Of a DNA stretch of 64,000 bases, positions 188 through 62,124 are shown in pieces; position 1 is the first letter of the stretch, and each line of letters opens with the position of its first letter. Source of the stretch: Ulota crispa (taxonomy: Eukaryota > Streptophyta > Bryopsida > Orthotrichales > Orthotrichaceae); contig OY987245.1 of the NCBI GenBank assembly GCA_963920765.1, forward strand, positions 1,814,727 through 1,878,726, in the 5' to 3' direction. Below the pieces are notes generated by a model. The model ran no database searches and was not told where the DNA came from. It saw nothing but the letters and a program-made list of their open reading frames with translations. Made by a program: the position numbers and the translations under genes.

Positions 188-580
188 TTAACCCCTGAAG
201 GCCTTTTTTGCATGAAAGGCATTGAAATTTCTACTTTTGGGAAATGAGTATAAAGGTAGGAAAAAAAGTTTTTAAAAAAAATCCAATTGTAGGATCTTGC
301 CCTAGATTACAAGAGGTACTTGTGAAAAAAAAATAGGCTCATTTAAACAAATGGGAATGAGACATTGACATCTGAAGTGAAGAAAAAGTTTATTTTCCTT
401 CCTGCCTGAAAATTTTAGTTTGACCACTCTTATAGTAAAAACAATTGCTCTAGGCAAAGTGAAGGTTTAATTCCTTTGAGTAGAAGACCAAGTTAGTTGT
501 GTGCGGGAGAATTTCAAGTCAATTGGAGGTAAATCTTAGAATGTTGGAAGGTCATGAAATTTGCATATACACTAGGGAAA
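188..580 (+). mobile_element. Truncated piggyBac-like non-autonomous element
   Basis: It begins with TTAA at 188-191 followed by CCCCTGAAGGCC. The next roughly 370 bases align by eye, in reverse orientation, with the complete element at 46026-46968. Shared landmarks are an AATGAGTA block, a block containing CCAA(T/C)TGTAGGATCTTG, and later CCACTCTTATA and AAGTTAGTT. I see no matching right terminus, so only the left part remains. No coding capacity is visible. The piggyBac assignment rests on the TTAA border and CCC-starting terminus. Confidence 0.5.
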
Positions 581-3005: not shown

Positions 3006-3659
3006 TTGAACCCCTCACCGCCCAAGGGGCCCAAATTGGGCTTTTATGAATTTTATTTAAGGTTGCACAACCTTCCTACAAGATTTTTTTAGTGGTTTTT
3101 ATTATTTTTAAACTGTTATTGAAGACTAGTTTTAGCATTAGGAGTTTGATTTTGAAAATGAATTAAAGTGATTTGTCTATTCAAGATTTTATACAAGGGT
3201 GTCCATTGCAAATCTTCACTTTCTAGTGTTGAAGGCTCTTGGAAATGAGTCTCAAGTACACTAGAACTTGGAGAAAAAATCACATTAAAAATTCAACTTA
3301 AAAAATTGTAGAATAGATTTTGAGAAGTCATAAATTGATTGGGGTTATGCATGTTATATTTTACGTACTCATATTTTTTTGGTATCCTCAATTTTAGATT
3401 TGAGATGCAAAAGGAGGATTGAAAGGCTTCAAATCACTTTTGTAGTTTTAACACCCTCATGGTCAAACATTATAATCTTTCAATCCATACATGGTATTGT
3501 TGTGATTTCTTTTCCTATGTGATCTATAACATGTCTGTTTTAAATTTGTACGGTTACCCTTCAGAGAAATTTGATAAAATTGATCAAAATGACAGCATTT
3601 TGTTCACTGTCAAGCAAATTCTGAGATACTCCAACCTACCATGGGCGGTGAGGGTTTAA
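3006..3659. mobile_element. piggyBac-like non-autonomous element (family P1)
   Basis: The left end is TTGA then ACCCCTCACCGCCC; the right end is GGGCGGTGAGGGT then TTAA. This gives inverted termini of about 14 bp and a TTAA-type border with one change. Length is 654 bp. In inverse orientation the interior matches the element at 52118-53100 (shared landmarks AATCTTTCAATCCATA, CCTATGTGATCT, TTTGTACGGTTA). No transposase is encoded. It is old, judging from divergence between copies. Confidence 0.65.
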
Positions 3660-7695: not shown

Positions 7696-8062
7696 AGTTA
7701 ACCCCTAAACGTCGAGGAGGACAAAAAACGTCCTCCTGCTCTGAAAAAGATTCTGTGATTCAGAAAAAAGTCGTTTTTCATCTGATTCTTTTTAGAAGTG
7801 ACCATAAACACATGGTTCATCATGAAAGACAAAAAATTACCTCTTGAGATGTATTCATTTTTTTTTGTAACTCACATTGTGAAAAGATTCAAAAGCATGG
7901 TGTCAGCTCCGAAGCTGCCCTTCTTGCAATTTTCATAAGGGCACTATGCATAGTTGACATTTCCAACTTTTTGAAGCAACACTATTGGTTCCCATGTGCA
8001 AAACATTGTAGAATGCTATAGGCAGGGCAGGCCATGGTGATCCATCCATCCTTTAAGGGTTA
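7696..8062 (+). mobile_element. TTAA-bordered repeat (family Y), tentative piggyBac-like MITE
   Basis: It starts TTAACCCCTAAACGTCGAGG and a TTAA end preceded by CCTTTAAGGG occurs at about 8053-8062. The first roughly 220 bp match, inverted, the sequence running down from 26432 (shared AGTGA(C/T)CATA, ACA(C/T)ATGGT.CATCATG, GATTCA.AA.CATGGT). Terminal inversion is short (about CCCYTAAA), so the right boundary is uncertain. No coding capacity. Confidence 0.4.
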
Positions 8063-9340
8063 ACAATGGTTGTTTGGAAATGATGTCAATCTTACACCAA
8101 AGCTAGAAACTGCCAACTTTAGGTGCATTGCCCAAAATTGAAAATAAAAACATTTTTTCTCAATTCTAATCGTACAAAAGTGTGTCAAATAGATAAGTTA
8201 ATATGTGCAAAAAATCTCAGCCCATTTGACCTTGTGGATTGTAAGATTATAACGCATAAAGAGAGAAAAATAGTTTTTTTTCATTCCTGCAAAACAAGGT
8301 TAGCACACTTTGAGCCTTCTTGGAGTAAATTTTTTGCTCTACACAAATTTGAGCTTTTTGATCATTCATAAGTATATGATGTTAGGTTCACTCATGAAAA
8401 TTTTCAGATGCAAAGATACCATCTAACTTATTCTAAATCACCTTGCAATGCAAGGAGGTTTAGTGAATTGGCAATACATTAGTCATTCTTTTCATGATTT
8501 CTTGTGCAATGAGGGAGTTTTTTATTTGAAATTTGAATGATAAATAGTCAGAGACAATCATTTGGAATATGTGCAAAAAGTTTCAAGAGTTTTGGATTTA
8601 CAAAGTGAAAGATAATAGGGCCTGAAGTTAAAGGATTTTTTTTTTCTTAAAACTACATGAACATAATTAACAAAGTTTGACTCCCTTTAGAATGTGATGT
8701 GAAACCTCAATTTGTTTATTTTTTTGACAATTGTACACCATGCTTTTTTAGTTACATACTTACCAAATTTCAAAAGTTGATGATAGTTTTAGCATAAGAT
8801 TCTCCAAAGATGCCCAAACTACCCGAGCTGCCCAAATTCTTTTAGGCTACATAACTTTTGAACCGTGCATCCGATTGGGGAAAAAATAAATTTCTACTTG
8901 AGAGATACATATTTGCACCTTGTGCAACAATTTTGAGAACATCCGATAACAATTAACTTCATATGACCCTACTTGAGTTCTCAAGTGGCTATTCAGGCGA
9001 TATTTTGCCAACTTTTGACAGGTTTTGACAAATATGGTTGCTTCCCTCCAAAAAAAATTCCAATGCAAAGAGGGACAGTCACTTAGAAAAAACCCTGGTT
9101 TCCACCCTTCCATCTGGGTGTTTGTGATATGGTGTAAAACAAAAATACATACACATTTGTCTTTTTTTGTTTTCTTGTAAAAGTAGGTCCAAAAGCTCCA
9201 TTCAATTACCAATGCTAACACTGTTGATATAGAAACTTCCTGAAGTACAGTAGTCTCAAACAAAGATTGTTGGGCCTTGTTTTTGTATTGAGAGGTCATG
9301 TCAAACATGACATGAAAATGAGGTCAATTGGCCACTTTTT
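8063..9340. other. AT-rich intergenic DNA
   Basis: Long poly-A and poly-T runs, no exon-like coding. The 153-aa minus-strand frame at 8847-9308 lacks recognisable motifs, has repeat-like composition and no splice context, so it is not called a gene. Confidence 0.4.
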
Positions 9341-28242: not shown

Positions 28243-29157
28243 TTAACCCCTAAATGCCCAAGGAACCAGAATCTGGTGTCCAAATAATTTCAAAAAACTT
28301 TGAAACCTTGTTGAAGGCACAAATTATTTTTTTTGTGGTTTTTTTTTTTTTTCTTTGGAAAAATTGTGTGCTGAAATTAGCTTCATTGTTCAAATTTGAT
28401 TTCCTCCATATCTTATTCCATTTGTTTTTGGTGGAAGGTTAACTACAAGCATACATTTTCTATCATGAATAGTGTTGTGAATAGTGTCAGAGAGCCTACG
28501 AGAAGTTGCCACGTTGAAAAAACGGGCCTCAAGTTGAGCAAAAGGTGAAGATTTCTCTTAGGCACTCCCTTGGGCAATAAGGGCATTTTTTTTGAAATTT
28601 TGATATCTAACAAAATCTAAAAGTGCTTTTGGACTAATTTCACTTGGAATCTCTTTGTTATACTAATTAGAATCTATTCACCATTGAAAATTCTTTCATT
28701 CATAATGATTTCTAGTCAATAATTGAAGCTGAAAATTTTCTTTGTATTAGACGGTTGTGTTTTGATAGTTGCATTGTAGGCTCACTTGTGAAGTTGTGGT
28801 CATGGATTTGGAAGAGGGGCCATTGGTTTTGAGGTAACAACAATAAACACTAAAACATCCTAAGTGGTTGTTTCCCAATTTTGTATCCAAAAGTCACCAA
28901 TTTACATTAGAAGTTTCGAGCAGCTCCAAAAAAAGCAAAATATTCCATACTCATCATCATTCATTCACAAATATCTTGAAATCTGAGCGACCATTTTGGA
29001 TTCTTTTTGGGTAGTACCATCTAGAAACCTTGAAGTTCAAGATTCAACGGTTACAATTTTGTTTTGATGTTTAATAATGATCTTACAAGGACATTTCAAA
29101 AACTTCAAAACTACCTTCTGAAAACAAGAAAAACCCCTTTGGGCATTTAGGGGTTAA
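28243..29157. mobile_element. piggyBac-like non-autonomous element (family P2)
   Basis: 915 bp bounded by TTAA on both sides (28243-28246, 29154-29157). Termini CCCCTAAATGCCCAA and TTGGGCATTTAGGGG are perfect inverted repeats of 15 bp. No transposase; the interior is AT-rich. Intact TTAA duplication plus a CCC-starting terminus is the piggyBac signature. Confidence 0.75.
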
Positions 29158-29273
29158 GCAATTATAGTTTTGCTTTTAACATTGAACACTATCAGCTATT
29201 ATAACTTTTAATCTTTCCTATCAAATTTTGACCATCAAGCAAAATTCAGAACTCAATGCCATATTAACCCTTT

Positions 29274-30198
29274 AGTGCCCCTCAACCATGGGGGGGCACT
29301 TCAAATTTTCACTATACGGTCTGCAAAACACATTCAAGTACAAAATCTCTGTTTCTAAAATCTGATTGGATTGGACATATCAAAGTTATAAACTTTGGCA
29401 ACATAAATAAATAAATAAAAAAGTTTGATCTATTGGAACATTTCCACGAAAGGATTGTGAGAAGCTTGATGATCCAAAAAAACTTGTTGTGCAAAAACAT
29501 GAGACACTCTAACTAATTAGTGTCAATCATGCAAATGAAACTTTTGATAGTGGTGAAAATTGTACAGGCTATTGCCCCATTTTAGGTTACTGCACTTCTA
29601 AAAAAATACAAAATTTGAGCCAATCTATGCATTTCATGGCATGATTTGTGAAATTGGGCATTGGAAGAATACAAACGTGGCCACACATATATGGTTGAAT
29701 ACAACATGCATGGAACATTTTTCCACAAAATCAAATTGGTCAGTATCATTTACATTGGCTGTCATTTGAGGTACAAGGTCCCACATTTAGCATTGCAAAC
29801 CTTTGGAGCCTAAGATTTCATGGAATATGCAATGCTGTAGTTGAAATATGCGACAAGTATAATTTTTGAATAAACCATGCATCTTTTGCACAACTACTAG
29901 AGAGTTAGCACTGGATACTTTGGGTGCAATATGTGGGCTTTGGGGCCACGTCATGGTTGCATTGAATTAATATTTCATTCATTACACCCGTATGAGATTC
30001 CCAGCTTCATATGTAAAACATGCATAGCTACCATGTTTCTTTATGGCTTGCTTTGAAATTTGTTCCAATAGGAGCACAAATTAAACCCCCAACTCCATTG
30101 CGTTATGTGTTTTTGCAAATTAAATTAAACAAATATAACAAGAACCACAAAGTACCAAAATCAACCCAAAAGTGGTCAACCATGCACTAAAGGGTTAA
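29274..30198. mobile_element. piggyBac-like non-autonomous element (family P3)
   Basis: 925 bp bounded by TTAA (29274-29277, 30195-30198). Termini CCCTTTAGTGC and GCACTAAAGGG; subterminal CAACCATGG / GGTCAACCATGC are also related. No coding capacity. It lies only 116 bp from the P2 element, with different termini. Confidence 0.75.
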
Positions 30199-30199
30199 A

Positions 30200-30980
30200 A
30201 GATGTAAGTATTCTTCATACAAAAACTTGTTTGTTCTGTGGATATTTATTTTTTCAAAATTTTCAGTGAAGTTTTTTATTTTTTGGTTAGTTAATTATAA
30301 TTTGTCAACAAAATTGTATAGACTAATACATATTATTATGTTACGTAGAACTTAAGCTGATGAGTTTTTTTATCCATGTCTTTTGAATTAAATTCAAGCA
30401 AAAATAGTGATAACAAAACATGATGAAAAACATTCTTTATTGTGTTCTTTGTAGTTTCAGCAAAGAAAGATTGCAATCACAGTAGCTCTTTGATCATTTA
30501 GAATTTTGGTATAAATAAAATTCTAAGGAAATAAACTAATTTTCTGTCATCTTAAATTAGTTTATCTTGAAGCTAGCAAGTAACAACTGGGTATCCGTAT
30601 TTTAAAAGCCACAATGGTGTTAGGAATAAAAAGTTTCATATCCATAGGAAAATTCTGGTTTCCTGTGGACCTCAAAATTGTATTTCTTAAGTGCAATTGT
30701 TTAACTGTGAAACATCATTTGTTAAAAAATCTCATTTAAATGATTGACTCAATCAATAACTTTGTAAAAAATGGCCTTTCTCATTCCCCTATATTATCCT
30801 GAACTTTTATCTTTATTGAGCATATCCTTTTCAAAAGTGTTTGTAGTAGCTCATCTGATGTTGAGAATCAAAGGAATGTGGACATTTTGATAAAAAAAAC
30901 TGAAAGGTTCAAATCCCCATAATTTTAAGAGCAACAAAGCCATAATCACATGGAACAAATTATTTTCAATTCCCATCAGT
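30200..30980. other. AT-rich intergenic DNA
   Basis: No gene or bounded repeat recognised. Confidence 0.4.
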
Positions 30981-30986
30981 GAATAA

Positions 30987-31230
30987 AACACCATATTAGG
31001 TAAATTGGGAAAAAGGGTGTCCCACTTTGTTACTCCCCCAAACCCAAAAAACTAGATTCAAAGTATTAGATTCAATTTGAGCCACTAAAATTTTTTCCCT
31101 CTCAAATCCCTTCTCTTAGGTGAAGACACGTGTGCGGTGGAGCTCAGATTGAGGAGATCACCTCAAACTTTGAAAGCAACTCTGAAAGTCCCAAATTATA
31201 CCTTTTTCCCAATTTTTCTAATATGGTGTT
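30987..31230. mobile_element. MITE family M4 (4-bp TSD), copy 3
   Basis: 244 bp, flanked by ATAA at 30983-30986 and 31231-31234. Termini AACACCATATTAG and CTAATATGGTGTT. Interior is the reverse of copies 1 and 2 (TTTTTTCCCTCTCAAAT, TCTTAGGTGA). Confidence 0.85.
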
Positions 31231-31234
31231 ATAA

Positions 31235-32397
31235 TCTTTTAGTTTCTTTTTTTTGGCACTTAAGAGTGTTACAGCATAAAAGTAAATGTCAAATAATGCT
31301 TCGTAACATTATTTAGCAGTAGAAGGAAGGTGCCTTTTTGGATTCATTCAAAAAGGAAGTAATCAATTAAAATAAGACATGCACTCCCTAAAACGGAGGA
31401 AATTACAAAGACTACTGATGAAGGTGCCTTACATTAGGATGTCCATGATGTCAGTGTTTCACTGCACAATGACCATACAAACCAAAAGCAATAAATAGGC
31501 TCATATTAGAAGAAAACTGAGCTCAAGAGAGGGCTCCCAATCTTGACACAATATCAAATTTATTGAGGTAGGAGAAGTATAGGTAAGGTACTGACACAAG
31601 GGTTTTTACCTTGTGTGCAGTACTCAAATGGATCATGCTACATGACAAAAGGATTTGATGATGCAAAGTAATATTATAACATGACAATCACTAATGTAAG
31701 GACCTCTAGTGGGACACAAGAATAAACTACACTTAGAATTCCCAATCAAACAAGAACTCTCATCAAATGAAAAGAATATAATATTGTAAAAAGAAAATAT
31801 ATACTTTCTGAAATTGTGTCCTAATTGACATGTCCAAATTGACTAAATGTGTCCAAAATGACAAAAAGTGTCACATTGAACAATTTTTGTAGGTTTAGCC
31901 ATGTTGATTTGAACATATTTTTGTCATTTTGGATAGTTTCCCTTGTAGTATATCCTCATGAAGTACTACGTCATAAGTTGCAAGCAGGTATAGGGTATTA
32001 GTCTCTTTTGATTTGAAAAAGAACATTACATTTAAATGCTTGTGACCCCTCTAATCACTTCCCTTGAGGGCCTTCTCTTAAGCTCATATTTCCATGATTA
32101 GTAATCATATGTAAGTATGGGCATACAACTTACAAATTAAGTTTAGACTTTGTCCCATTGAAAAAACCTTACACAACAATTATTTACATATATGTATTGT
32201 TATAAATAATAGAACACAACCCTTTTTTATATATAAAAATACAACCAAGAATAGAATACACAATCAAGAATAGAGATTGGCTAAGAGAGAGTGTCATGGT
32301 GCAACTTCCAATGACATGTTTGTCCTTTTTACAAGGCAAAAAGGGGTACATGCATAAAGTGGAGAGATGAGGGGTACATACATAAAGTGGTTTAAAC
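31235..32397. other. Intergenic DNA, no gene seen
   Basis: Contains a small inverted pair TCCAAAATGACAAAAA near 31853 and TTTTTGTCATTTTGGA near 31932 that could fold; otherwise AT-rich with no bounded feature. Confidence 0.4.
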
Positions 32398-32401
32398 TAA
32401 G

Positions 32402-32832
32402 AGCATCATCAATGTGTACACTCAAAAAGAGACACGCATGCATATTTCTTGGTGGGGGCCACTTTAGCGAGAGGTTTAGGGAATTCTAGGGCTCCAGCAG
32501 TGCCACTAGAACGGGAATGCCAAACCTAACCCCGTTAGAACCACCTCTTGGAGCAACATATTGTCTCTTTTTCCCATGCCCTTGCTTGTTTCCCAATGCG
32601 CATTGCGTTTGCTGATGGAGTGACACGTTGCTTGTGATAGCTTGCAATTTCTTGGTAACAACTTGCAAGTACTTACATTCTTCTACTATCGTGCTTGAAT
32701 CTACAATGGGGGTTGCGTCAAGGTTGGGAGGACTCGGCTTGTGAAAAGAACAACATACTTAAGGGGTGGGGAGCGACGTAGGACTAGTTACTTTTAAGTC
32801 CCATTTGTAGCATGCACATTGATAATGCTCTA
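32402..32832. mobile_element. Harbinger/Tourist-like MITE
   Basis: About 431 bp. Termini GAGCATCATCAATGTG and CACATTGATAATGCTC, flanked by TAA on both sides. A 3-bp TAA/TTA duplication and GAGCAT termini suit the PIF/Harbinger group. The interior is GC-richer than the flanks and has no transposase. Confidence 0.7.
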
Positions 32833-32938
32833 AGGCTTTACTTTGAATCAAATTAGTGGCATTTGTAAGTTAACTAATCACTGACGGCTTAAATTTTTTA
32901 ATTGGTCACACTTTGTAATAAGATTGCTACCCCTTTTA

Positions 32939-32970
32939 TTTATATTTATATATATATATATATATATAAA
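32939..32970. repeat. TA microsatellite
   Basis: A run of TA dinucleotides preceded by TTTATATTTATA. Confidence 0.9.
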
Positions 32971-34400
32971 AGAGATTATGGGATTACAAAATCCAAATCT
33001 ATATTCAATGTAGAATTGTAAGCATGATTTAAAGTGTCAAATTTTTAGAATTTCACATTTGTTTATATAGGAACAACGATACATAGCTTTAGGTTCAAAA
33101 TTAGGGAACCAATAGGGGAAGAATGAAGAAATGATATCCAAAGAAATTATTAAAGTACTTTCAAAATGTTTTTCCATCGATTGACCATGTCTTTCAATGG
33201 AAAATGACACGATGATGAGGTGGCAATCCCTTTGCGAAGTATTGTAATAAGTAAATGAGAAAAACTTAAAACCTATTGTGGTCGAGATTGTGGTAACGTG
33301 TGACTAGGCTTGGGCGCATGATGTCTTGGTCACATGATGTCACTTTCACTTTCCCTCTTCACCTATTTGTTAGAAATTCAAACTTTGACCAACCACACAA
33401 AATGTTATACCGCTCCCATTATTGAGGGTTAGTCCTTTTGCCTTGAAGCATAAGACAGAAGTACCTATTTGTGGAAATTTCAAAAGCGAATAAGCACAGA
33501 ATACTCAAACCCTCTTTCTTTTACAAAGGGGCATTCTTTTTGCGGTGGAGAATAATATAAGGTAGGAATACCATAAACCGTTACCCACCTTTTATGAAGA
33601 GAAGTATATTGTTCTGAAACCAACAATAGTTGGTATTGAAAAAGATTCTAAAAAGATGCTATTTTGTGGCATTTAATTGATTCACACACTTGTTTCAGAA
33701 CAAGGTTCTATAGGTAACCGTTTCAAGTACACCTACAAAACAAGAATAGGGTCCCAATGAAAAATACACATTTGTATTGCATAAAATATTCATTCTTGAG
33801 TTAATTTTTTTTTTTTTGCATTCTTCCCTATCCTTGTTTTTTTTTTTGCACAGATCGAGCTTGATTTCTAAAGAAATTCCTCATATAATATTGAGGCTAA
33901 GTGGCTTATTCTAACTATTTATGGTATTTCTACCTTCATACTGGGGCCTAGGGTTAGTGTTTGGGGAGGTTCTTTTAAAAACTAAGTACATTTCCTAGTC
34001 TTATCTGGTCCACTTGGTTTTTTTTTAATATAAATCAGTCATGGCCTAAACATGTATTTTTTGGTCAGCCAATAACCTTTGTTTTTTTTCACTTGGTTGA
34101 TTTCCTAAGTTTAGGAAAATAGTTCGGTTGAAATCTGAAGTTCAACGTATTATATCGGATTTTTTTTTTCTTACAAATGCTGTAGACAAATCAATCTTTT
34201 GCTTACCATGTGCATGGCATAGCAAAGCAAGACAATGATTAAGACATCAAAAACATGTCAAGTTACCCCCAACCAATGCAAACTTTTTTATACTTTAAAA
34301 GGATTTATTGTTGACTTTTGTTACTTAAACATCTTTGGCTGGATTTGAAATAGGTCAAGTCCCACCATCTTGGGATTGAACACCACGTTTCCTCTAAGGA
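32971..34400. other. Intergenic AT-rich DNA
   Basis: No gene, RNA or bounded mobile element could be supported. Several poly-T runs occur between 33800 and 34170. Confidence 0.4.
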
Positions 34401-34408
34401 TTCGTGCA

Positions 34409-34592
34409 CCAAGTGCACCTCTTATCCCATTAACCATCAAGTGCACCGTTTATCCCATTAACCATCAAGTGCACCGTTTATCCCATTAACCATCACCCAC
34501 TCACCCTCTCATTTACTCACTCACTCATCCACTCACTTGCTCACCCACTCACTTGCTCACCCACTCACCCACATGACCACCTCACCCATGTT
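34409..34592. repeat. 28-bp tandem repeat followed by CACTCACC-rich minisatellite
   Basis: About three copies of a 28-bp unit beginning AAGTGCACCGTTTATCCCAT (first copy has CTC for CGT) are followed by roughly 95 bases of degenerate CACTCACC/CACTTGCT repeats. Strongly pyrimidine-biased on this strand. Confidence 0.85.
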
Positions 34593-35093
34593 TCTTGTTT
34601 TTAGAAATTTTGAACTTTTAACACCTTGTAATTGCTTGTGAAATAAAAAAACATTTGATTTTTGTTTAAAAGATCAAAAAATTTCTTTATCATGGTTCTG
34701 TTCATAGGTTGATTTCCCATAGTTTCAAATTCATTTGGCCCATTTCCTCATTTACAAGTGCACATTCGACTAAATTTCCTAGAGATGAAATTGTAACTTG
34801 ACTGAATTCCTAAAGCTATGTTTGTATGGTCATAAGCAAATCCACCAACTTTCATTTTTTTTGGCAATCCTCAAAAAAAGTCGGCTGATTGTAATTAAAA
34901 CTCGGTTCTCCCCGGACACTCCCTGGAGTGAGCAGATCTTGACAAGGGACACTATTTAAGTGTGAAAAATTTAATGTTGACGTGGATGGGTGCATTAACG
35001 CAGCATTTCTACAGTGCCATCAATGGTCATAACATTCAGTAGCTTGAAGAGAGGCCTTTCCCTCTCTTCAAGTATCATCCACAAACTTCATTT

Positions 35094-35130
35094 TTATTAT
35101 TATTATTATTATTATATATATATTTTTAAT
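35094..35130. repeat. ATT/TA microsatellite
   Basis: Eight or so ATT units lead into a short TA run. Confidence 0.85.
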
Positions 35131-36352
35131 TATAATTTCTGACACATCTGGCCCCCTCAACGTGTGTGCATTGAACTAAGTCTCCCTTGCACAAACTCTA
35201 ACAAATTCAACCAAGTGTCCTCATAGCTAAAAAAAGGTGTGACAAATTCCACACCATTCTCTTGCCTTTACTAGTGCTACTGAATGTTACGTGTCGCATG
35301 ATTTATTAGTCCGGCTTTTTGGCTCCATTTCCAAAACCATCCCTTCATTTCTGCCATTTTCCTTTACTCTACTTTGATATAACCTGATATGTACCCGTGG
35401 TAGGGATGGACCAATGCACGGGTGCCACGTAGTACTTTAATTAATTCAGACAGTCGTTGCAAAAGCTGACGTGCGTGATTTTATTGTGATCCCAATTTGG
35501 CAAACTGTCAAATATTCAATCTCTGCATTGCAAGGTTTGGGGAGAACCGGCAGTTAGTGCAGTGGCAGCCGGTTGAAATTGCAAAAAATCCACTTGAAAT
35601 TTGAAATTATTAGCTAAAAATTTGGTCCATTTTTCAAAAGAATCTAAATGTAGTACTTTTACAATAAAAATTTAGAAATTTTACAGAAAATAACCAATCT
35701 ATATCAGTGAATATCTGGTTGAAATTGGACACTGCAGGATTTCAACTGATGAAGCTAAAATTTCTCCCCAAACCCTGCTTCGGAGTTAGTTTTTTGGACT
35801 ATGTTATATGATGCAGCATCGGCGGACCCATTAAGAGAAAAACAACTAAAAATAAAATTTTGAAGAAAGATTATGGTATAGCAGTTTGAAGTCGGTTTCA
35901 TATGAGATACACAAGTGGGTTTTTTTCTCGATAATACTTGGGAAAAGTGTAGATCTAGGTTTCGTACACTTATATTAGTTTTAGTCATTTTTACCTTGAA
36001 AATGTCAAAACTTGTGGCCATGTAGTCAAACTTCAAAATCTTTTTTCTACATAATTTGTTTTGTCTACGTGTATACATGAAGTTTTTCTTAATTCCATTT
36101 TTTAATGTTTGTAAGACATAACCAAACATGTTTGATTATGGAATTATAGGGGTTTTTTTTGTATTGTATATGGATGTTGTAGAAAACGTAGTAGATACAC
36201 GTAAATAGAAGTGGTTGTTAATTGAAAAGTTTGGAAAATAGTTTTTAGGTGAAGAAAAGGAAAATCTTGCAACTACTGATCAATGTGAATCCACGTCAGA
36301 AACACACATGGATATTAAGAATTCCCATAATTGGATTAGGAGTATTGCTAAG
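35131..36352. other. Intergenic DNA
   Basis: The longest frame (35755-36129 minus, 124 aa) has no recognisable domain, no splice context and the composition of the surrounding DNA; not called as a gene. Confidence 0.4.
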
Positions 36353-37268
36353 TTAACCCTTTAAGGACCACGCGACCATACTTTGGTCGCTGGGAGTGGT
36401 TTTTGGCCTGTAGGTTGAAATTGCTCAATAATTTGGAATTTGGTCTTGAAGTACGCATGTGATCGCAAGAATTTTGCATCCATTTAAAAAAATAACATTG
36501 CAATTGGGTATGTGAGTTGATAAATAATGGTGTTTATACGGCATGGCTTCAAAATATGTATCCAACTTTTGTCAAAGATGGATCAAAGCAACAACACAAT
36601 ACATCAAGTTTGCAAGAAGAATGTCAAATTTCAATTGCACAATTCTAAAAAAATTCAAATTGCTTAAGAAATATGCTTGTATTGTTTTCATATACGGTAG
36701 TAGTATAATTGTAGTATTTGAAGATCTACTGAAATGGTGTTGTTGTTTTGGCTTTAAAATTTGTCATCCAACATTTAAGGCCAATTCTTGATTGTTTTCA
36801 CCAATTGGATTTTCCAGAATAACTTATCAAATTTCTTGTAGAACCGTTTTAGGGTAGCAAAGAAAATGGGTTTTTTGACCCTTTTTGTCCAGTAAGCTAC
36901 ACCTTATGATTGTTATTTTTATCTATTTTGTGTGAAACTAGTCTTGTTGGAAAGGTGGGAAACCTTGCTTTCTAGAAATGTAAGGCTCTTCTCAATCAAA
37001 GCTTGCATGAAAAGTTAACATTCAAAACTAAACAAGAATGAAACACAATAGATTTTCCGCATACGGCTCATTCAATCATTATAATATTTCACCTCCAACA
37101 GTAAATCTAGCTGAAATTTTGTTACTTTACAATAAACAAGGTGTACTTCCCATTTGTACAATTGGATTATTGAAAATGGGTCCATATTTGAGTCAATTCC
37201 AAATCTAAGCTTAGAGCCCCTGTTTTCAGTGGATTCTGTGAAAACGGGTGTGGTCGTTGAACGGTTAA
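36353..37268. mobile_element. piggyBac-like non-autonomous element (family P4)
   Basis: 916 bp between TTAA at 36353-36356 and TTAA at 37265-37268. Left terminus CCCTTTAAGGACCACGCGACC; the right, reversed, reads CCGTTCAACGACCACACCC, so about 15 of 19 bases agree. A short internal hairpin, GCGACCATACTTTGGTCGC, lies at the left end. No transposase. Confidence 0.75.
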
Positions 37269-40315: not shown

Positions 40316-43300
40316 TTAGTTTTGAGAGCAGGCACTGCTGTGTCTACGATGCTGTTGCTGCTGCTTCATTGTCATGGCCATTTCAGAGCACACAGAATCA
40401 CGAGATGATTCGGAACTGGAGAATCCCCTGCTAGCAAACAACTTACTCAACAGCTTCTCTGGTTTGAAAGCAGACAACACACCTTTAGATTTCGTGTGAT
40501 TCTCCGGTTTAATTGCAATCGTGCTGCGTTCTCTCGCCGCTTCTGCAATCCGCATTTTGAAGCTTGCAAGGTCGCCTTTCAAGGCTGCGAAATCCTGGTG
40601 CACCGTTTCCCAATTGTCATCACTAGTGGACGACTGCCTGTGGTTGTTATTGCCGTTGTTGGTCTCCGGAAAGCTGATTTCGTCACCATACTCAGATGCC
40701 TGCTGAGAGTTCCCTTGCAGGTCGCTTAGGCGAAGGCCTCCGTTTGTTGCAGTCCGCATTTGGTCGAAGAATAAGACCTGCAGGAATATTCATCCGTCCA
40801 TGAATTTTGCAGACAAGGATATATTACTTGGTCAACATAAAGAAGGAAAACACGCAAGCAGCTACATAATGAGTGACCCTATGCCTACTCTTCTCACCAA
40901 AACGTAAAATTGTACTGACGTTTAGCACATTCATTGTTTCATGGGAAGATTGCAAATACAAGTCACAAGACCGCAAAAGTGTTATTTAAGCGACTACAAT
41001 TTGTACCACTATGTATTGCGTGGTCATCGATGACCTGATATGAATGTGGCTCGGCAAAGGTACAAAAGAAGCACTTGAAACTACAGTACTAATTAGCCAT
41101 GAAATGCAGTCTCCCGGTAATGCCTCCATCCCAAGGAGGAAGAGCGAAAAAAATCTCAAAACACAAATACATTTGAGTACTCTTGAGTAGTAGTAGCATG
41201 GCACTCTTTGTGAAGAAAGCAAACTAAACGGGTTTTATAGCAGCATCTGAGCAGATCGAGTGAAATTAAAGCCTTCCCATATTCTCACATGCAACGGCAA
41301 TGGCTAAGTTGCTAAAAGCAGCTCTCACTTGTTCAAATTTGGCTTAATTCTGCAAAAACGAGGTGTCAGAGGTTCCTTCATAGCTACAGCAACTGACCTG
41401 AACCATAACTCGAAGTGGGAGACGTTCATTCTGGGCTGCATGCATACACGCCTCCATCGACAGCTTCTTACAGTCCATCAATCTGCATATCTTTTTCCGT
41501 TCACTCTTTGTCAACAACGGGTGTTCCTGCAGTCCCAAGACCCAGCCAAAATCTCGCTAAACAATCTTTTAAAGAAACTCAAAAACAAAACCCTGACACG
41601 CAGGAGGAAAGTTGTCCCCAGAATGGTTGCAAGCATCGGGCAAAAACAGTAACAAATCTGAAAAGAACACAAAATAGGCAAAAACTTCAATATTTTCTCT
41701 GAAGTAAACACAAAATGAAAGTAAGACTAACCTTAAAGTACATGTCAATGGCGCGATACAATCCATCATGAACAGGGCGTGCAAAATCAGGCACAGAAGC
41801 CGCAAGCTGGATGAACTTCGACATGGGCATTTTCGAGTCCCGTGCAATCTCAGCAAGATATCTATCAATAACCTTGGCTACTTTGCAAAGAGAACCGTGA
41901 ATGGCTGTTGTAGTAATGATCATCAGCTGATCAGATGCATCAGAACCAAAATCCACCGAGGATTCCACCTGGGCTTGGTTCCTCTGAAATTGTGTCATGT
42001 AGTGCTCCACAATACGTATCATCAAATCCACGTCACACACGGTGTTACTTGCATAGGACACGGAGGGAATCATTAGATCATGCAGTGAAGCCTCCTCCAA
42101 CTGCAACCCGACACGCCTTGCAAGCTCCGTTTTGGTGGAGGGTGACGCGTCCAGGAAGGTCGCGGTCTTCAGCAACCGCAGCAAGAAGCTACATGAGGAC
42201 GAGCCTTTCTCTGAGGGAAGCAAGCTGACAATCGTCTCTATAATCTGCTTCTCCTTCGCTGTCGTCTCCATAAGCTTACTTTCCTCGCTTGGAGTTTTCT
42301 CTGGTTCTGGTAAAGATTCAGATAAACACTTCAGACTGTAGACTCTTATGGACTCGGCCACCACATCTGGAGAGCCACCGTTCGCTTTAATGGCGGAGAT
42401 CACCCTCCTGTAGAGACCGATGTCCAAATCACTCAAGTCTTCGACCCACCAGTCCTTCGGCACTGGAAACATTCTGCGACTGCTCCAGGAAACTGGACTA
42501 CTTTGTGCACTGGAAGGAGCACGTAATCTCGAGTAGGTGAAAGACCAGTCTACCCCATTCGCGTTCCCACATGCCTTTGCTGAGATTGACTCAATGCACC
42601 GACCGATGATCTGTTGCAATAAATGGACAAAAAAATTAGCAATAACTTGGTTGGGCTTCAGTGAACAAGCTGGGTGCAAGCACAACTTCACAATATGCCT
42701 CTGATCACAGAATTTAAATAAAAATAGGGTTGTCTACTGCCCCTTCAAGAGTAATCTTAGCCTTTGAATGATTGCATACGAAGTTCACACATAGTGATGA
42801 AAAGTTGATCTCAAGGGAGTTTAGGTCTAGAACTCTCCAGAGACCTCTTTTGAGAGATGTATCAACGAAAGAGTGTTTTCACATGATGGTTAAAATGCAT
42901 GACGTAACGCAAAGTGCCTTCTACTCACCTCGAGATCTTCGGACCATGGCATGTAGGCTTGACAAGTGCGAAGACAGATTATTGCATCCTTCCAGCCACG
43001 TAGTATGGAGGAGTTCAAAAAGACTTCCAGCTTGTACATCAGATTGCTCTTCTCCATTGTTTCTGTCATCTGCAGAAACTCCGCGCCACATCGCACCTGC
43101 ACCACATTGTGCGGGCTCAAGGTGATGGTGATGCCATAGCAATACTTGGCACACATCTCGAAACATGCAACTCCACCTGGAAAGCCCTGAATGAGCACCT
43201 CTTCGCTTTGCGACTCCGCAATGAGTTTGGTGAGGCAGCCCCATTTCGCCAGCAGAGGGAACTTCAACAGCCAACAGGAGGGACTTCGTCAGAGAACAAA

Positions 43301-46025: not shown

Positions 46026-46968
46026 GCAACCTCTAAAGGACTGTTTGTCCGTTTGGGGGACAAATGGATTTCAGGCATGTACCTATGGTTAAACTACTTT
46101 GCGGGATTTTTTGAAACTTTCATTGTAGGTGGGAAATTCAAAAATCTATGTGGGCATCTAATTTTTTCTTCATTTTAACATTTGATAAAGAAATTATGCA
46201 TGAATTTCAGAAAATTTGGGGAGGACCGCCTGTCTGGGCAGCCCAAAAGTTTCTTTAAATTTTTTTTTTTTGAATTTTGTTTTTTGAAATTGGTTCTTTA
46301 GATTTTGTTAATACGTGAGTAGCTTTGAATCATTTAATTTCAATCAATGAGATGAAAATTATGAGGAGTTTTTGTTTGCGGGTAGTTAGGGATTCTCTAC
46401 TCTAAAATAAACTTTGAAGTCCTTTATTTTACTCAATTTTCATTATTTTGGAAAAAAAAATTAAACCAAAAGAAGTAGATTGTTTATCATAACATTACAA
46501 CCATTGAGATTTGCATTTTTCATTTCAGTAATTAAATTCATAACAATTCAGAATTTTGACTTGTTCTCTACTTCTTTTTACTTACTATTTTTTTCCCATG
46601 TGTTGTATAGTTCCAATTGATCTGAAAATTCTCCCACATATAACTAACTTGATCTCCTACATGGGAAAAATAAACTTGAACTTTGTGTAGAGTAATTTTT
46701 TTGATATAAGAGTGGTCAAAGACTTCTGAAATTTCTAGGCAATAGGGAAAAACACTTTTTTTTTTTCACTTTAAATGTAAATATCTCTCTCCTCTTAGTC
46801 TAAATTGACTTTATTTTTTCCCACAAGTTCCTTTGGCAATCTAGAGCAAGATCCTACAGTTGGATTTTTAAAAAAAACAAATTTTCCTACTTTTCTACTC
46901 ATTCCCCGAGAAGTGGCAGTTATCAGTGACTTTAACTTGAAAAAAAGGCTCAGTCCTTTAGGGGTTAA
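46026..46968. mobile_element. piggyBac-like non-autonomous element (family P5), nested
   Basis: 943 bp inside the mariner-type element. Right end AGTCCTTTAGGGG-TTAA is intact; left end is GCAA-CCTCTAAAGGACT, the border having mutated. Reversed, it aligns with the truncated copy at 188-580. No transposase. Confidence 0.7.
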
Positions 46969-49177: not shown

Positions 49178-49495
49178 TAAGGTAGGAGCACCCATAAGCG
49201 TCAGTGTCCCCATAACCGTCACTTTTGAAATTTTGAAAAATTTGTGAAAATGAATAGATGTAATTATAAGGATGTACAACATGTGTACATGAAACCTTAG
49301 TGTTGGTTATGGGTACAATGGTAGTTTGCTCTTTAAAAATTCACTACTTATTCTCACAGTATCCAAATTATACATTTGCAAGTGCAAACTCAATATTCTT
49401 CTATTCCTAACAGGATCCTATAATTTGCTAATTGTTTATTGATACTCATCATGTTCAAAACCCTCAGTTTGACACTTATGGATGCTCCTACCTTA
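49178..49495. mobile_element. MITE family H, copy 1
   Basis: 318 bp with termini AAGGTAGGAGCACCCATAAG and the reverse complement (CTTATGGATGCTCCTACCTT). Subterminal CATAACCGTCAC occurs inside. Same family as 49995-50390 and 52447-52780. The superfamily is unassigned because no consistent target duplication can be read. Confidence 0.7.
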
Positions 49496-49994: not shown

Positions 49995-50390
49995 AGTAAG
50001 GTAACCGCACCCATGGGCGTGACGTCCCATGGGCGTGACGTCCCATGGGCGTCACTAACAAAGTCAGGGTGGTTATGAGTACTTAAGTGATATTTATGAG
50101 TGACAAAGTGATGGTTGTGGGTGACTCCATGACGGTTTTGAGTACCCACCTCACTATTTAAGAACCGGCTAGCCTTGTTTTTAGCATCTCTTACACATGA
50201 TTCTACAATTTCAGTGATTTTGGACATTGAAAAATCTTTGTGAACAAATGCTTGCAGTTGGAACCTTGAAATTGATGCCAATGTTTTTGGTTTCCATTTC
50301 CTAACCTATAGTATTTTTTTCAAAGTTAGTCAATTGTTTTACCTACTTCAAAACCCTTATTTCCACGCTTATGGGTGCGCCTACCTTACT
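49995..50390. mobile_element. MITE family H, copy 2
   Basis: 396 bp with termini AGTAAGGTAACCGCACCCAT and ATGGGTGCGCCTACCTTACT. The left subterminal region holds 2.5 copies of an 18-bp unit (CATGGGCGTGACGTCC). CAAAACCC..(T)TTTCCACGCTTATGGG precedes the right end, as in the other copies. Confidence 0.75.
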
Positions 50391-52117: not shown

Positions 52118-53100
52118 TTAAACCCCTAAATGCATGAGGCCTTTTTGAGCTTCTAGGAATTTGCTATAAATTGGACAAAATGTCAACATTTTAATGAGTT
52201 GTATCAGTTTTTTGTAAAATTATAACCGTACAAATTTAAATTAGATATGTTAAAGATCACATAGGAAAAAAAAAACTTAACAATATCATTTATGGATTGA
52301 AAGATTACAATGTTTGATAATGAAGGTATCAAAATTGCAAAATTGACTTGAGGTCTTTGAATCCTCTTTTCATATTTTGAAATTAAAAAATTGGTCACCA
52401 AAAAATTACAAGGTTAAAAGACATAACATACATAACTCTAGTCACTTTAAGGTAGCGGCACCCATCATCACGGAAGTCCCCATGGGTGTGACCTATGAAG
52501 GTACTCAACTATTAATCCCCAAGTTTTCTGGTCCCATGATTGACAGGTCTGGGCCAATGGGTGACGGGGCTTCCTTAGCATCTCCTACTCACGGTATAGC
52601 AACCAAAATGATTATTGACTTTGATAAATTTTGCGACCAAATGCTTGCAAATCTCTTAATTTAATGCTAGCATTTTTCATTCCCATTTGCTAACCTCAAG
52701 ATATTATTTTAATGAGTCATTCAATCAATTGATGTACTCGGAAACCCTTGTTTCCATGCTTATGGGTGCGGCTACCTTAAGGCTTTTCAAACCCTCTTCC
52801 ACAAAATATTAAAATAAACTTCTAGAGTAAGTTTTTCTACAAGATCTATTGAATTTTGAGGTTCATTTCCAAGAACTCTCAAAATTACAGAAAATCAAGA
52901 GCCATGCACAAAATCACAAAATCTTGAATAGAAAAATCATAATCAACCATTTTTAAAATTAAAATTTTGATGCTAAAACTAGATTTCAAAAAGAGTAGTT
53001 TGAACATATAAACTACTAAAAATAACAACTTAGTTAGGTTTAATAAACTTCAAACTATTGTTGACACCAAAATTTGAGACCTTAGGCATTTAGGGGTTAA
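52118..53100. mobile_element. piggyBac-like non-autonomous element (family P1), with nested MITE
   Basis: 983 bp. Left TTAA-ACCCCTAAATGCATGAGG, right CCTTAGGCATTTAGGGG-TTAA. Without the 334-bp family H MITE at 52447-52780 it is 649 bp, almost the same as the inverted relative at 3006-3659 (654 bp). Both share the TTTGTACGGTTA and AATCTTTCAATCCATA blocks. Confidence 0.75.
52447..52780. mobile_element. MITE family H, copy 3, nested in a piggyBac-like element
   Basis: 334 bp with termini TTAAGGTAGCGGCACCCAT and ATGGGTGCGGCTACCTTAA. It is inserted in the P1 element, so it is younger than that element. Confidence 0.8.
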
Positions 53101-56292: not shown

Positions 56293-59200
56293 TCAAGTGA
56301 TGGAGTGACGCCGTCGTCTTGTTGACGTGGCACTCTGAGAAACAGACTTGGAGAAGGTCTGCGATTCAGACTCCCGGGACGAGGCGAAGTTGGACACTTT
56401 CTTCTTGCCGAAGAGCTTCTGGAAGAACTGTTTGGGCTTGGAAAACAGACCTTTCGGTGTCGATGGTTTGAAAGGGCCAGCAGTCGAGAACGAATGCCGG
56501 TTCTTTGCTGATGCTGCTGCTGCTGCTGCTGTTGTTGTTGTTGCTCCAGAAGTGATGCGGTGTTTTCCATCACTCAGAGTTGTCGTTGCGAAGTCTTGGT
56601 GCCACCCGAGTGCACCAGGTGCAGCGGGCATGGTCGGGACCTCCCCCGCCGTGTGCACATCGGAAACGCTGAGCTCGTCATCAGAATCAGCACCCATGAG
56701 TGCACGGAGGTTGCTTGGCATGTTGCTTGCAAGAAACTCTCCTGTTGCCGCGGTGCGTAATTGTTCGAAGAAGAGCACCTACACTCGCCGTGGAATTTGA
56801 GGTTAGCTGAAGAAAGCTGAATCCAAAACACTATTTCCTTACATAACATTCTATAATCCCATGCGTAGGGCAATGCTCTTCTCTCCAAAGCGGGCATTAT
56901 CATGGTTGCTACTTTGGGTGAGTTTAAGCCAAAGGACATGGCGACGTGGCTGTCCATGCCGGAATCAGAGTGTGGACGTTAGGGCGCGGATGCAATGTTG
57001 CGTCTGTGTCCCAAATTTTTAAAAAAACAGAAAAAAAAAACCACTTGCCTTAACTGTATGTGTTTGGGCCAGACACGCATGCGGTTTAGGGTTGGTCCAA
57101 TGTGACAACCATGAGCATTATGTGAAATAAAGAGTTGATAAAGAGGGCAAAGGCTGACAAGGAAGCCCTTTATTTCACATAATACCCAATGAGGAGAGCA
57201 TTGTCCAACGTAACCCAATGCTACGAAAAGAAAGAACCCGTGCATGAAGAACCCATAATCCTTGATTACAGAATTTTTCCTACGGAACTCTCCCCAACCC
57301 TAATTCTGCAGTATAATCCGCCCTCTAAATGAACGGGAGATTTCCCATTCCCTACAGAGGTTTACATTTAAGGAAGGCACTTTTTCATTTACATTCAGTT
57401 TGAAAATTTGAAGAAATGCATTTGTTTGACTAGGTTTTAATGAAAAGTTGTCAAAAGTTGCTAGAAATTTTTTTCTAGTTAACTGATGCAAGAACATGCT
57501 CTACAGGACTTTCCAAAAATTGAAAGGCTTGGACAAATTCCTCGAGACTCCCTAGCGAAGAAAACAAATTGCTAGTTTGAAGTAAATGTATTACCGTCTC
57601 GACAGTTGGTTAGGGTTTACGATTGCAACTTATAAGATTTCTTCTCATTCTACATCTTCGGATCAACCAATAAATACAGATGTGGACATTCATGATTGCA
57701 AAGAATGATTTGGCATTTATGGCTGATAATGGTCTCAAACTTTCTGGATCTTGAGCATTATCTACTCCATAGCCTATTTGACATGATTCTTATCCTACTC
57801 CGATTCTTAGCATATACTTACTACAACCATGTCACCTAAGATAGACATAATCCAAAACAGGAGAAAAATGTCGTATGCTATCACTTGATTCTCTCAAATC
57901 TCTTTAATATTGTGATCTTTAGTCTCTAAAATTATACTTTAGAATATAAACACACTTGCCACACTATTATTGATTGTAGCACACTAGTAAAGCATCCCAG
58001 GTGGCAAGATTTAAGAGGTTCAAACGTACTTCCAACATGACAAGGACTTCCATGTTCTGTACATTTGATGCTGAAACTGTAAATTATGTGATGACAGAGA
58101 GACGGGTGCACCCACCTGTACAACAGTGCGGAGAGGTAATCGATCATTTTGTGCAGCATGCATACACGCTTCTGCCGACAGCTTTCGACAGTCCAGCAGT
58201 TTGCAAATATTTTTGCGTTCGCCCTTTGGAAGCTGTGGATGTTCCTGCCACACCAATCAATATTTGAGCTGTGAGCTGATTCCATGAGGCAACTACTCCA
58301 GAGTCAAACAGCATTCTAATGCAATCCAATTCTATCCCCTTTCGTGTGCCAAATGAGCCCGATTCCCCCTTGCCAATCCTTCTCAAGATAGTTGCAGCAT
58401 CATGCTTCTATTCCTAGTCCCAATGATGTTTCTAATACTAGTCGTACTAAGAAAGCAAAGAAATCCAGTAGCTATGCTGCGAGACGCTCTATCCATTTCC
58501 CTTTTATATTGCAAACAAAGTTATAGCTCATGATGTAGCTTATTCATTCTAAGAACTAGGGCTGGGCTCAATTTCTGAATAGCAACAAAGACCACACGTA
58601 AAAACTCACTCAAACTTTGAAACCTCACTGTAGATGTTACGTACGTTGATGCGAAACTTGCCTCCCTCTAGTCTAAAGCCAATAAAACAACAAAGAAAGC
58701 TCTTAACCCAAACAGATCCAAATAGACAGAATACGCTGCTTAAAGTAAACAACACTTACCGAGGGATTGAAGAAAAACTCAGCACATTTTTTAGCAATGG
58801 AAATATGTTTTCAAAACAACAATGATTGACTATTGGCTTCCAAAGTAGACTTTCTAGATTTAGGTCAGGCACTTTCAGGGATAAGTGCAGCAAAGGACTA
58901 ACCTTGAGATACATGTCGACAGCACGATACAGGCCATCATGAAAGGGGCGTGCAAAGTCAGGAATGGACTCCGCCAGTTGCACGAATTTCGCAAGCGAGA
59001 GGGAGGGGTCTCGAGCAATTTCAGCCAGGTAGCCATCAATAAGCTTGGCCACTTTCATCTTGGAGGCGTGGGTCACAGCGCTGGCGGGCCGGCTTTCGGT
59101 GAACTCGATGTGGCCTACAGACAGCGACCGTCGCTTCTTCAGCTTGTTGCTCGTCCACACCTGCGGGCTCACTGGAGGGCTCTGGTTTTGCAGCAGATAA

Positions 59201-62124
59201 TGTTCCACGATCCGCATCACGATGTCCACATTGTACCGTGCCGAGTCATGGAGAGATGGCAGCAGCAGCAAGTCCTCCAGTGACGCTTCCTCTAATTGCA
59301 ACCCGATTTGTCGAGCCAGGTCTGATTTCAAGGATGCCGATGCAACGTTCAGCGTGATGGCCGCCTTAAGGAGCTTCAGCAAAAAATTGCACGACGCAGG
59401 ACCTTTCTCTGCTGGAAGCAGACTGACGATCGTCTCTAGCATCTGCCGCCGCCGCTGCTGCTGCTGCTGCTGCTTGGCCGCTGATTCCTGTGCATTATTA
59501 CAAGAATCCAGCTTCATTAACCCATTCCTGATGATTTAAACAACCCCCTATCCGAACACTTAACTTCAATTCGAGATTTCCATGTCATGCAATACTTATG
59601 GCTCTAGGGAATACTAGGCTCATAATTTCAACCTTACGACGTGAAATTTCAACTAGTCGTAACCTCAGAATTCAACAATCAATAACCTCAACGAAGCCCA
59701 TTTCTGGAGGGGCGGCCACCACGCATAAGACATTAAGAGCGTGTACCATTTTCCTTCTTTAGCGTGAAGGTGTACTTCTTTAAAGACACTTGCTGAGCAT
59801 GATTGAACAAGATTCATCCATTTGAGGCAATGTTGAAAGTAACAGCACCCCTTGCACTCCTGTGGCTTGACAAGTTCTTTCTTATGAAGCGGCTCTACTT
59901 TCCCATTACCTAGTTCAAAAAATTGTTCATGTGGAAATTGAATACAACATACTTTAGTGAATTGGAAAATACTCTCAAAACGAGGACGAGACCTACCCAA
60001 AAAAAAGAGAGAAGGAAAACCACTCAAAAAACAGCTGAGAGCTACTACAGAGATGGGTTCCTTACATTAGAAACAGTAGCAGGTGGTTCTTCTTCTGTTA
60101 CTTCGGCTAACCAGCGAAGAGTATAAACACGGAGTACCTCTCCCACGAGATCATGTGTCATGCCTTTGGCTTTCACGGCCACCACGACTCTCCAGAACAG
60201 GTCGATGTCGAGGTCGCAGAGATCTTGCACCCACCAGTCACTCGGGACAGCGGGTAGCCATGAGCATTCCTGCATGCCGTTCCACACGGCTGGGCTTGTG
60301 GATTGGCTTACTGACACGTGGTCGCTCGTGGCCATTGGTTTTGAGTAGGAAAAGGACCAGTCCACCTTGGCTGGATCCACCATCACTTTGGAGGACACAG
60401 CTTCAATGCAACGGTCGATAATCTTGTGATCACAACCACCAGCAACCAAATCAGTAATACAACCAACATAAACATACTGCTTTCAGAAAGATTTACTACA
60501 ATATGATTTGCACAAGTACATGCTGCAAATAACAAGATTAATATGTCTGAAGTAGCACTGCTGACGTTGAAGTAAACCACAACAAGTGCTTCATCTTTAC
60601 CTAATGAATGTCACCTTCTCTAATATCACACCCTCTGTCTCCCAACAAACCTCAATCTCCAGACATGCAGCCAGTTCAAGTCTCACTACCTCTCACTATC
60701 ATATTCTGGTGTGTCACAAGAAAGTTGAGTAAAAAAGTGATACGGAGTTCAACAAGGTTCTAGACCACCTTCAGCCACTACAGGTACAGCTTTGAAGTCA
60801 CTTGTACATACAACAGTATTGATTTGTGGCAATGTTTTAGAGCGTTAATGACCAGTTACGAGCATTTTGACAGCCTAGTCTGTGATATAGAAGAGGCAAG
60901 AAAGGTGGACTAACATTAAAGCCCAGCTAAGATTAATGCGTACTTTCAAATTTGCAGACCAGGGCAGACACTCTTTGCAGCTTTGGAGGCAGAAAATGGA
61001 GTCCCTCCAGCCGCGCAAGATGGAGGTGTTCAGAAAGACGTCCAGCCTGTAGATGAGGTTGCCCTTATCCACCATCTCCGACATGTTGAGGAACTCTGCT
61101 CCACATCGGATAACGCTTACATTATGTGCATTGACAGTTGTGAGCACGCCATAGCAGAACTTTGCGCAAACTTCGAAACAGGCCGCGCCTCCAGGGAAGC
61201 CCTTGATCTTCACTTCGTCTTCACCGGCTTCGACTGCTGCGGTCACAATTTTACTGAGCGCTCCGCACTTGAGCAAAAGAGGAAACTGAAAAAGCAGCAG
61301 CAGCAGCAGCCCACCAGAGTGATCAATCCTTCTACTATACTGTTAATCTCCACAAGATATAAACCTTTTATAAATCTTTTTAACAATAAAGCTCAGGATT
61401 CCAAAGCTGTGCATACCAAGTGAAGCTGGAACTTGTGTCTGTCCACATCCAGAACAATGTCGCTCTCGAGATCCGATATCGCCGTCCTGCATTTCCACGA
61501 GAATGATTTCATTTAGCATCTCCCAGCTGGAAACCAGTAACACGACACCTAAAAAACCTCCTTCCTTATTCAGCCTACACCACTAACATTGAGCATCACC
61601 TTTTCTGTACGATGTCAAATCAAAAAACATAAATAAAGAGATGCAAAGAATCTGTTATTCAAGATCTAAAAAAAGGGGAATATAAAATATTCTTTAGCAT
61701 GACGAGAGAAATTATTTCAATAACAGGTCCATATTCGAATTTAGTGTTGGGAGTAATCTATGAACTCGATAGTATTTCACATTCACGCTTAAACCACCAA
61801 AAAGGGGCTTGCCAGAACTGAATCAGACCATTATTCATGAAACTCACACCTACTTTTTCACTAGAACTAGCTGCTTTAGATGAATGTAAGGAGAACTTGA
61901 TTGGTAGAGGAATCACGTAAATCATAGCGAGTAACTTCACCATTTGAGTAAGTTGAGCTAATTGCCAGCCTACAGAGAAACTGCATTTGAAAAAACCTCA
62001 AAAATCCAAAAGAGAACTAAACAGACAGATAAAAACCAAAGGTTGTGAGGAATGGAGTGACTTACGTGATGTTGCCAAGAGTTGTGAAGCAGTCGGGCTT
62101 TGATCCCAACCTCATGAACTTCAT
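56293..62124 (-). CDS. NPY-like BTB/NPH3-domain protein B
   Basis: Seven exons in phase: 62124-62066, 61486-61417, 61285-60944, 60422-60066, 59487-58903, 58244-58116, 56778-56293; 675 aa. The start [13 protein letters not shown] is an NPY-type N-terminus. The BTB domain (about 21-148) has [47 protein letters not shown] and [15 protein letters not shown]. The NPH3 domain (about 195-515) has [53 protein letters not shown] and [24 protein letters not shown] six-Gln run (about 282-287) and a basic KLKKRRSLS segment lie in the middle, with Thr/Ala runs in the tail. The protein ends [10 protein letters not shown]: basic residues with Ser third from the end, the site that in NPH3 and RPT2 is phosphorylated to bind 14-3-3 proteins. 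It probably acts at the plasma membrane like its relatives. Exon 4 of gene A is split here by an additional 578-nt intron. The acceptor at 60423 (CACAAG) is weak. Confidence 0.93.
57117..57183. repeat. 16-bp perfect inverted repeat inside intron 6 of gene B
   Basis: ATTATGTGAAATAAAG at 57117-57132 and its exact reverse complement at 57168-57183, separated by 35 nt. It could be a hairpin in the pre-mRNA or the remains of a small inverted-repeat element. Intron 6 (1337 nt) is the longest of the gene. Confidence 0.8.

Follow-up and report, generated by a model that had tools for sequence, protein, structure and literature searches.

The closest described relatives of the elements treated here are piggyBac of Trichoplusia ni (Protein Data Bank (PDB) 6x67) and piggyBat (PDB 9c0f). 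Their transposase domain, TTAA target and CCC-starting ends are alike in a set of elements from the genome of the moss Ulota crispa (275 Mb, 157 contigs), six of which lie in a stretch of 64 kb (the window; C4:1814727-1878726). The ends of insect piggyBac likewise start with CCC. Set against piggyBac and piggyBat, the moss transposases are distant and mostly broken, the elements have several terminal types of their own, and the host is a land plant. The six short elements are very probably non-autonomous piggyBac transposons, i.e., miniature inverted-repeat transposable elements (MITEs), in a moss genome with several transposase lineages cutting and pasting at TTAA.

The original prediction had called piggyBac rarely documented in land plants, which could be checked in part. 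In the passages cited here, a 2023 review lists piggyBac among the MITE superfamilies of angiosperms (PMC10004981), the fern Ceratopteris has 1,230 PiggyBac pieces totalling 122,417 bp (PMC6890710), and the grass Stipa has one PiggyBac piece of 75 bp (PMC8319324). The superfamily assignment in land plants is the same in these reports. However, the Ceratopteris and Stipa entries are counts of small pieces, given in those passages without termini or transposases, whereas in the moss the target sites, ends and transposases are tied together within a single genome, and the copy number is high. The Tourist/Harbinger and Stowaway/mariner MITEs of plants are likewise short, non-autonomous and high-copy with inverted ends, but use 3-bp TWA or TA sites, not TTAA (as given in a passage of PMC10004981), and other transposases. 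Among titles and abstract openings, a search outside which most subscription papers fell, none was found on piggyBac elements of a moss.

The host is, judging by its LEAFY sequence, a land plant and a moss. A LEAFY exon of the same genome shares 103 of 105 residues with PDB chain 4bhk, which we take to be Physcomitrella LEAFY, and scores 241.6 bits with it, the next chain reaching 174.1.

Short TTAA elements in the window

All six elements of the original prediction were located in the window (families A to F; Table 1). They measure 0.65-0.98 kb, and the coordinates given for them were mostly right, with small corrections such as a start of the second element at 29264 and not 29274. Both TTAA copies are intact in exactly three of them, families A, B and C, as had been claimed. 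The proposed terminal sequence CCCYTWAA fits part of the ends; others deviate, family B starting CCCTTTAG and family E CCCCTCAC. In family E (originally placed at 3006-3659), the left CCCC is preceded by TGAA, and the right end has a changed base in place of its first C. Family F (originally 52118-53100) has A-like ends and TAAA as its left site, and its sequence is interrupted by an unrelated insertion of ~330 bp. It is 73.5% identical to family E over 306 bp.

The window was scanned for TTAA followed by paired CC... inverted termini (13 bp, at most three mismatches, spacing 150-1300 bp), allowing at most one mismatch across both TTAA copies together. Four pairs were found, corresponding to families A, B, C and F, compared with a mean of 0.37 pairs (0-2 each) in 30 Markov-generated windows. 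When TTAA was replaced by each of ten other 4-mers, ATAT gave three pairs, TGCA, TTAT and TAAA one each and the six others none. Owing to decay of their sites, the elements of families D and E do not pass at these strict settings. TTAACCC alone occurs at 11 + 7 sites on the two strands against 4.4 + 4.6 expected, only about twofold, and the case therefore rests on the pairing of ends and on genome-wide copies. The window also holds a partial D-like element, whose second end was not located there, and one candidate for an additional short TTAA-CCC element, considered in the window only (Table 1).

Genomic copies and target sites

Every family has repeated copies genome-wide. Each genome search scored about 40 candidates, among which 41 rows were returned for A, 40 for B, 40 for C, 48 for D, 43 for E and 77 for F, some rows being second pieces of one place. 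In the family F search, 39 other places were scored, of which 34 match the host element and five the nested insertion only. Target sites were sampled in 90 copies: 30 of A and 30 of B (all loci cut out, window copies included), together with 10 of C, 10 of D, five of E and five of F picked from match lists. In 72 copies both ends have TTAA no more than about 5 bases from the boundary, in 16 one end does and in two neither does (at least one end in 88/90), while the same test passes at 36 of 480 control flank positions. By family, TTAA stands at both ends in 23/30 copies of A, 25/30 of B, 7/10 of C, 8/10 of D, 4/5 of E and 5/5 of F. The 16-bp flanks differ among copies, except for L055 and L056, which lie in a duplicated region.

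In addition, the two flanks of each of the 60 A and B copies were joined and compared against the window and the retrieved loci; for eight copies, relatives run through the join. Exactly one TTAA is present in relatives of the insertion sites at L064, L017, L027 and L055/L056, and the relative of the L028 site reads TTAG. The TTAA target is thus duplicated on insertion, as both the borders and the single TTAA in relatives indicate.

TTAA includes TTA, TAA and TA, and a Harbinger-like MITE with TAA flanks exists in the window. The six elements might thus belong to another superfamily, whether Harbinger or mariner, which target TWA or TA and would have met TTAA by chance, or Sola3, which we take to target TTAA as well. 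However, a 3-bp TWA site alone does not describe the copies, as the fourth base is conserved and the full TTAA stands at both ends in 72/90, and piggyBac transposases sit inside elements with these ends (see below). Membership of another superfamily is considered highly improbable.

Abundance, divergence and arrangement of ends

The inverted ends start with CCC, and two exact terminal patterns are abundant in the genome. TTAACCCYTNANNGCC occurs 8,363 + 8,383 times (its reversed pattern, 22 + 15) and TTAACCCYTNANNGAC 9,084 + 9,047 times (reversed, 10 + 8), which together make 34,877 exact ends against 55 in the reversed controls. With two ends each, this would correspond to ~17,400 elements and, at 0.65-0.95 kb, to ~4-6% of the genome. 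Mean divergence from the majority sequence is 5.3% for A and 5.6% for B (30 copies each, being the best matches to the window copy and hence a non-random sample), and relatives of family C are 90-95% identical to the window copy among the matches listed. Two B copies, L060 and L068, stand 17 kb apart with nine differences in 935 bases and unrelated flanks; the pair hints at later movement, possibly a recent short-range transposition.

Paired piggyBac-like ends also occur head to head on one TTAA (GGGGTTAACCCC), at 163 places for this one pattern against ~36-42 expected if ends are placed on TTAA sites at random. This sharing was seen at eight of 180 ends examined (left end of L021, L051, L057, L062, L063 and L093; right end of L035 and L066), and it may reflect insertion preference, clustering or composite movement.

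PiggyBac transposases and their elements

A profile search of the contigs with PF13843 (DDE_Tnp_1_7) returned at least 120 matches over the cut-off, the best at E=1.3e-73, with 116 of 528 candidates scored. Stop-free match rows number 10 by count, several of them partial, and the transposases are mostly broken. Six of seven protein pieces matched PF13843 again on re-scanning; the exception, from L069, is a short C-terminal frame that gave no match. Compared with the PDB, pieces of L004, L069 and L003 match piggyBac at E=1.7e-16, 5.8e-17 and 1.2e-11 and piggyBat at E=3e-13, 4.1e-20 and 1.8e-17, respectively. Assuming the positions of the three catalytic aspartates used in the motif scan, all three motifs carry aspartate in five of the nine loci scanned (L001, L003, L004, L005 and L006); L069 has asparagine at the third, and L002, L007 and L008 each lack at least one recognisable motif. 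A search of viral contigs with one L004 transposase piece, reaching close relatives only, found no match. Elsewhere in the genome, two loci each hold a pair of PF13843 matches in one stop-free frame (Table 1), which makes each a candidate live transposase or domesticated gene.

Right ends were recognised at 10 of 17 transposase loci (L001, L002, L003, L004, L005, L006, L008, L144, L148 and L149), that of L148 having TCAA in place of TTAA. An exact TTAACC[CT] scan of the 1.5-kb flanks found right ends in two of the first eight loci, most of the others lying farther out. Left ends were sought over 1.2-1.4 kb at six loci and are convincing at four, where the left/right pairing was matched as well by 0 (L001), 0 (L006), 0 (L005) and 2 (L008) of 300 shuffles. 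No TTAA was found in 401 bp of sequence upstream of the L149 transposase. The four paired elements are 5.0-5.6 kb long with TTAA-CCC ends, and a DDE_Tnp_1_7 transposase thus lies within full-length elements; L004 and L148 have in addition a right end of the A type.

The original prediction had named TTAA borders of genomic copies, empty sites and a DDE_Tnp_1_7 transposase flanked by the same kind of ends as its checks, and all three are present in the assembly. PiggyBac elements have been active in this moss in the past. The prediction had spoken of an autonomous source that 'is, or was, active'; past activity stands, with several transposase lineages of differing termini, and neither a single source nor present activity was borne out.

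Links between short elements and transposase elements

Families A to E each have a terminus, or up to ~585 bp, in common with a transposase element. All 30 A copies match a stretch downstream of the transposase, at 81-86% in L004 and 74-79% in L148, and in 28 of the 30 the homology breaks at the same base, in L004 and in L148. The common part is the 3' third to two thirds of the family, found at two transposase loci with one break point. Positions 1-329 of A have no match in L004 or L074 (the L004 locus) except short chance ones and the terminal repeat, and this lack of a counterpart to the left third is as internal deletion predicts. The A homology makes the end places of the L004 and L148 elements predictable, and A's right terminus was found at both (TTAACCCCTAAATGCCTAAGGGTGTTTTTC and TCAACCCCTAAATGCCCAAGGGTGTTTTTC). 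B resembles the L005 element at the latter's left terminus, which one end of B matches in 23 of 30 copies (E 2e-5 to 0.008), and by eye the L149 right end resembles B's other end. The first 66 bp of C match the L005 left terminus at 68%, the last 377 bp of D are 62% identical to the 3' end at the L003 locus (10 relatives were checked for the D ends), and the first 31 bp of E match the L001 left end at 84%.

A false look of common ends would also arise from mere adjacency, with MITEs inserted beside transposase genes. C-like elements do occur in such places, one adjoining the L006 transposase element (within L071) and one by L150, and one TTAA is common to two ends more often than expected (163 sites against ~36-42). 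However, the A homology in L074 and L148 stops inside A, at window-copy positions 330 and 328, and not at A's left end, A's first 329 positions are unmatched in L004/L074 as described above, and four transposases are enclosed by paired ends. Adjacency as the source of the common ends has very little to recommend it.

Several observations weigh against the six elements being piggyBac MITEs moved by such transposases. No convincing right end was found at seven of the 17 loci (L007, L069, L143, L145, L146, L147 and L150), the search spanning 3.3 kb at L069 and 0.9 kb at loci from L143 on, plus an extra piece at L148. The L003 left end is weak (37 of 300 shuffles match as well), and L002 has none (145 of 300). 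At the insertion sites of L064 and L055/L056, some further relatives carry mutations or gaps at the join, and L016 and L026 have no clean single-TTAA relative among those compared. The A-type transposase element is known by its right end alone, the links of C, D and E cover 31-377 bp at 62-84% identity, and a transposase element with family F sequence was not found. Furthermore, an A-like stretch (L073:439-558, similar to A positions 616-735) lies just outside the L003 element, starting directly at its right end, and another D-like end is found upstream of the L003 transposase.

Other features of the window

Nine open reading frames of the window were scanned; three match the plant family NPH3, with a best E=2.1e-74, and another matches a ribosomal RNA dimethylase. 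Two NPH3-family genes, in exons, lie ~17 kb apart and are apparently paralogues. A tRNA scan and an Rfam search of the window were both empty. The Harbinger/Tourist-like MITE copy within the family F element was considered as another TTAA element and rejected, since its relatives are flanked by TAA and the preceding base varies.

Table 1. Positions of the elements, genes and repeats described (window positions unless a contig is given).
Feature	Position	Strand	Description
Family A element	28243..29157	.	915 bp including both TTAA; 19-bp perfect inverted ends TTAACCCCTAAATGCCCAA
Family B element	29264..30198	.	935 bp including both TTAA; ends TTAACCCTTTAGTGC
Family C element	36353..37268	.	916 bp including both TTAA; ends TTAACCCTTTAAGGACC / TTAACCGTTCAACGACC
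Family D element	46026..46968	.	left site decayed (GCAA), right TTAA intact
Family E element	3007..3659	.	~650 bp; ends CCCCTCACCGCC / ACCCTCACCGCC; left site decayed
Family F element	52119..53100	.	~650 bp own sequence, split by insertion 52448-52779
Partial D-like element	188..527	+	starts TTAACCCCTGAAGGCC at 188; 74% identical to D positions 591-947
Candidate TTAA-CCC element	7698-8063		possible; ends TTAACCCCTAAACG / TTAACCCTTAAAGG
Paired-end transposase element	C3:13130262-13135288
Paired-end transposase element	C2:15046195-15051296
Paired-end transposase element	C8:446266-451851
Paired-end transposase element	C9:16419462-16424749
Stop-free transposase frame	C1:1180709-1181995		563 amino acids
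Stop-free transposase frame	C8:19570986-19572215		472 amino acids
Family B copy L068	C4:10465816-10466750
Family B copy L060	C4:10483052-10483986
Harbinger/Tourist-like MITE	52448-52779		family ~310-390 bp, ends GGTAGSNGCACCCAT, TAA flanks; nested in family F element
Harbinger/Tourist-like MITE	near 49181-49492		same family
Harbinger/Tourist-like MITE	near 50000-50385		same family
NPH3-family gene	41690-42733	-
NPH3-family gene	58759-60482	-
Tandem repeat	1432-1856		213-bp unit twice, 99% identical

Interpretation and significance

Each MITE family would derive from a piggyBac ancestor in which the transposase gene was lost and the ends were retained. Several lineages of piggyBac transposase would then excise the MITEs and paste them into TTAA, duplicating it. 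We infer that the lineages described here are those that moved families A to F, and by analogy with insect piggyBac the excision may be seamless. This is known piggyBac biology, and the surprise is its abundance in a land plant host.

To our knowledge, the terminal inverted repeat (TIR) module of the annotation tool EDTA has no piggyBac class. In the passage cited, one moss genome annotated with EDTA has 29% TIR transposons, with CACTA as the largest part (PMC11704416), and it is only a guess that piggyBac was mislabelled there. A wider joint proposal is tentative and, taken as a whole, somewhat doubtful: that a large moss piggyBac radiation (~17,400 elements, perhaps 4-6% of the genome) is mostly filed under other names in plant repeat annotation, that both stop-free frames are live or domesticated, and that family B moved recently.

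Insect piggyBac serves for marker excision in rice, and the passage cited, from 2017, describes it as untested in Physcomitrella (PMC5505980). For its use in mosses, the presence of resident piggyBac relatives would be of consequence. The moss, with more than 100 transposase copies in several lineages and exact ends in the tens of thousands, shows that piggyBac can be maintained on a large scale in a land plant, and the persistence of piggyBac in mosses, as against its repeated arrival, becomes testable.

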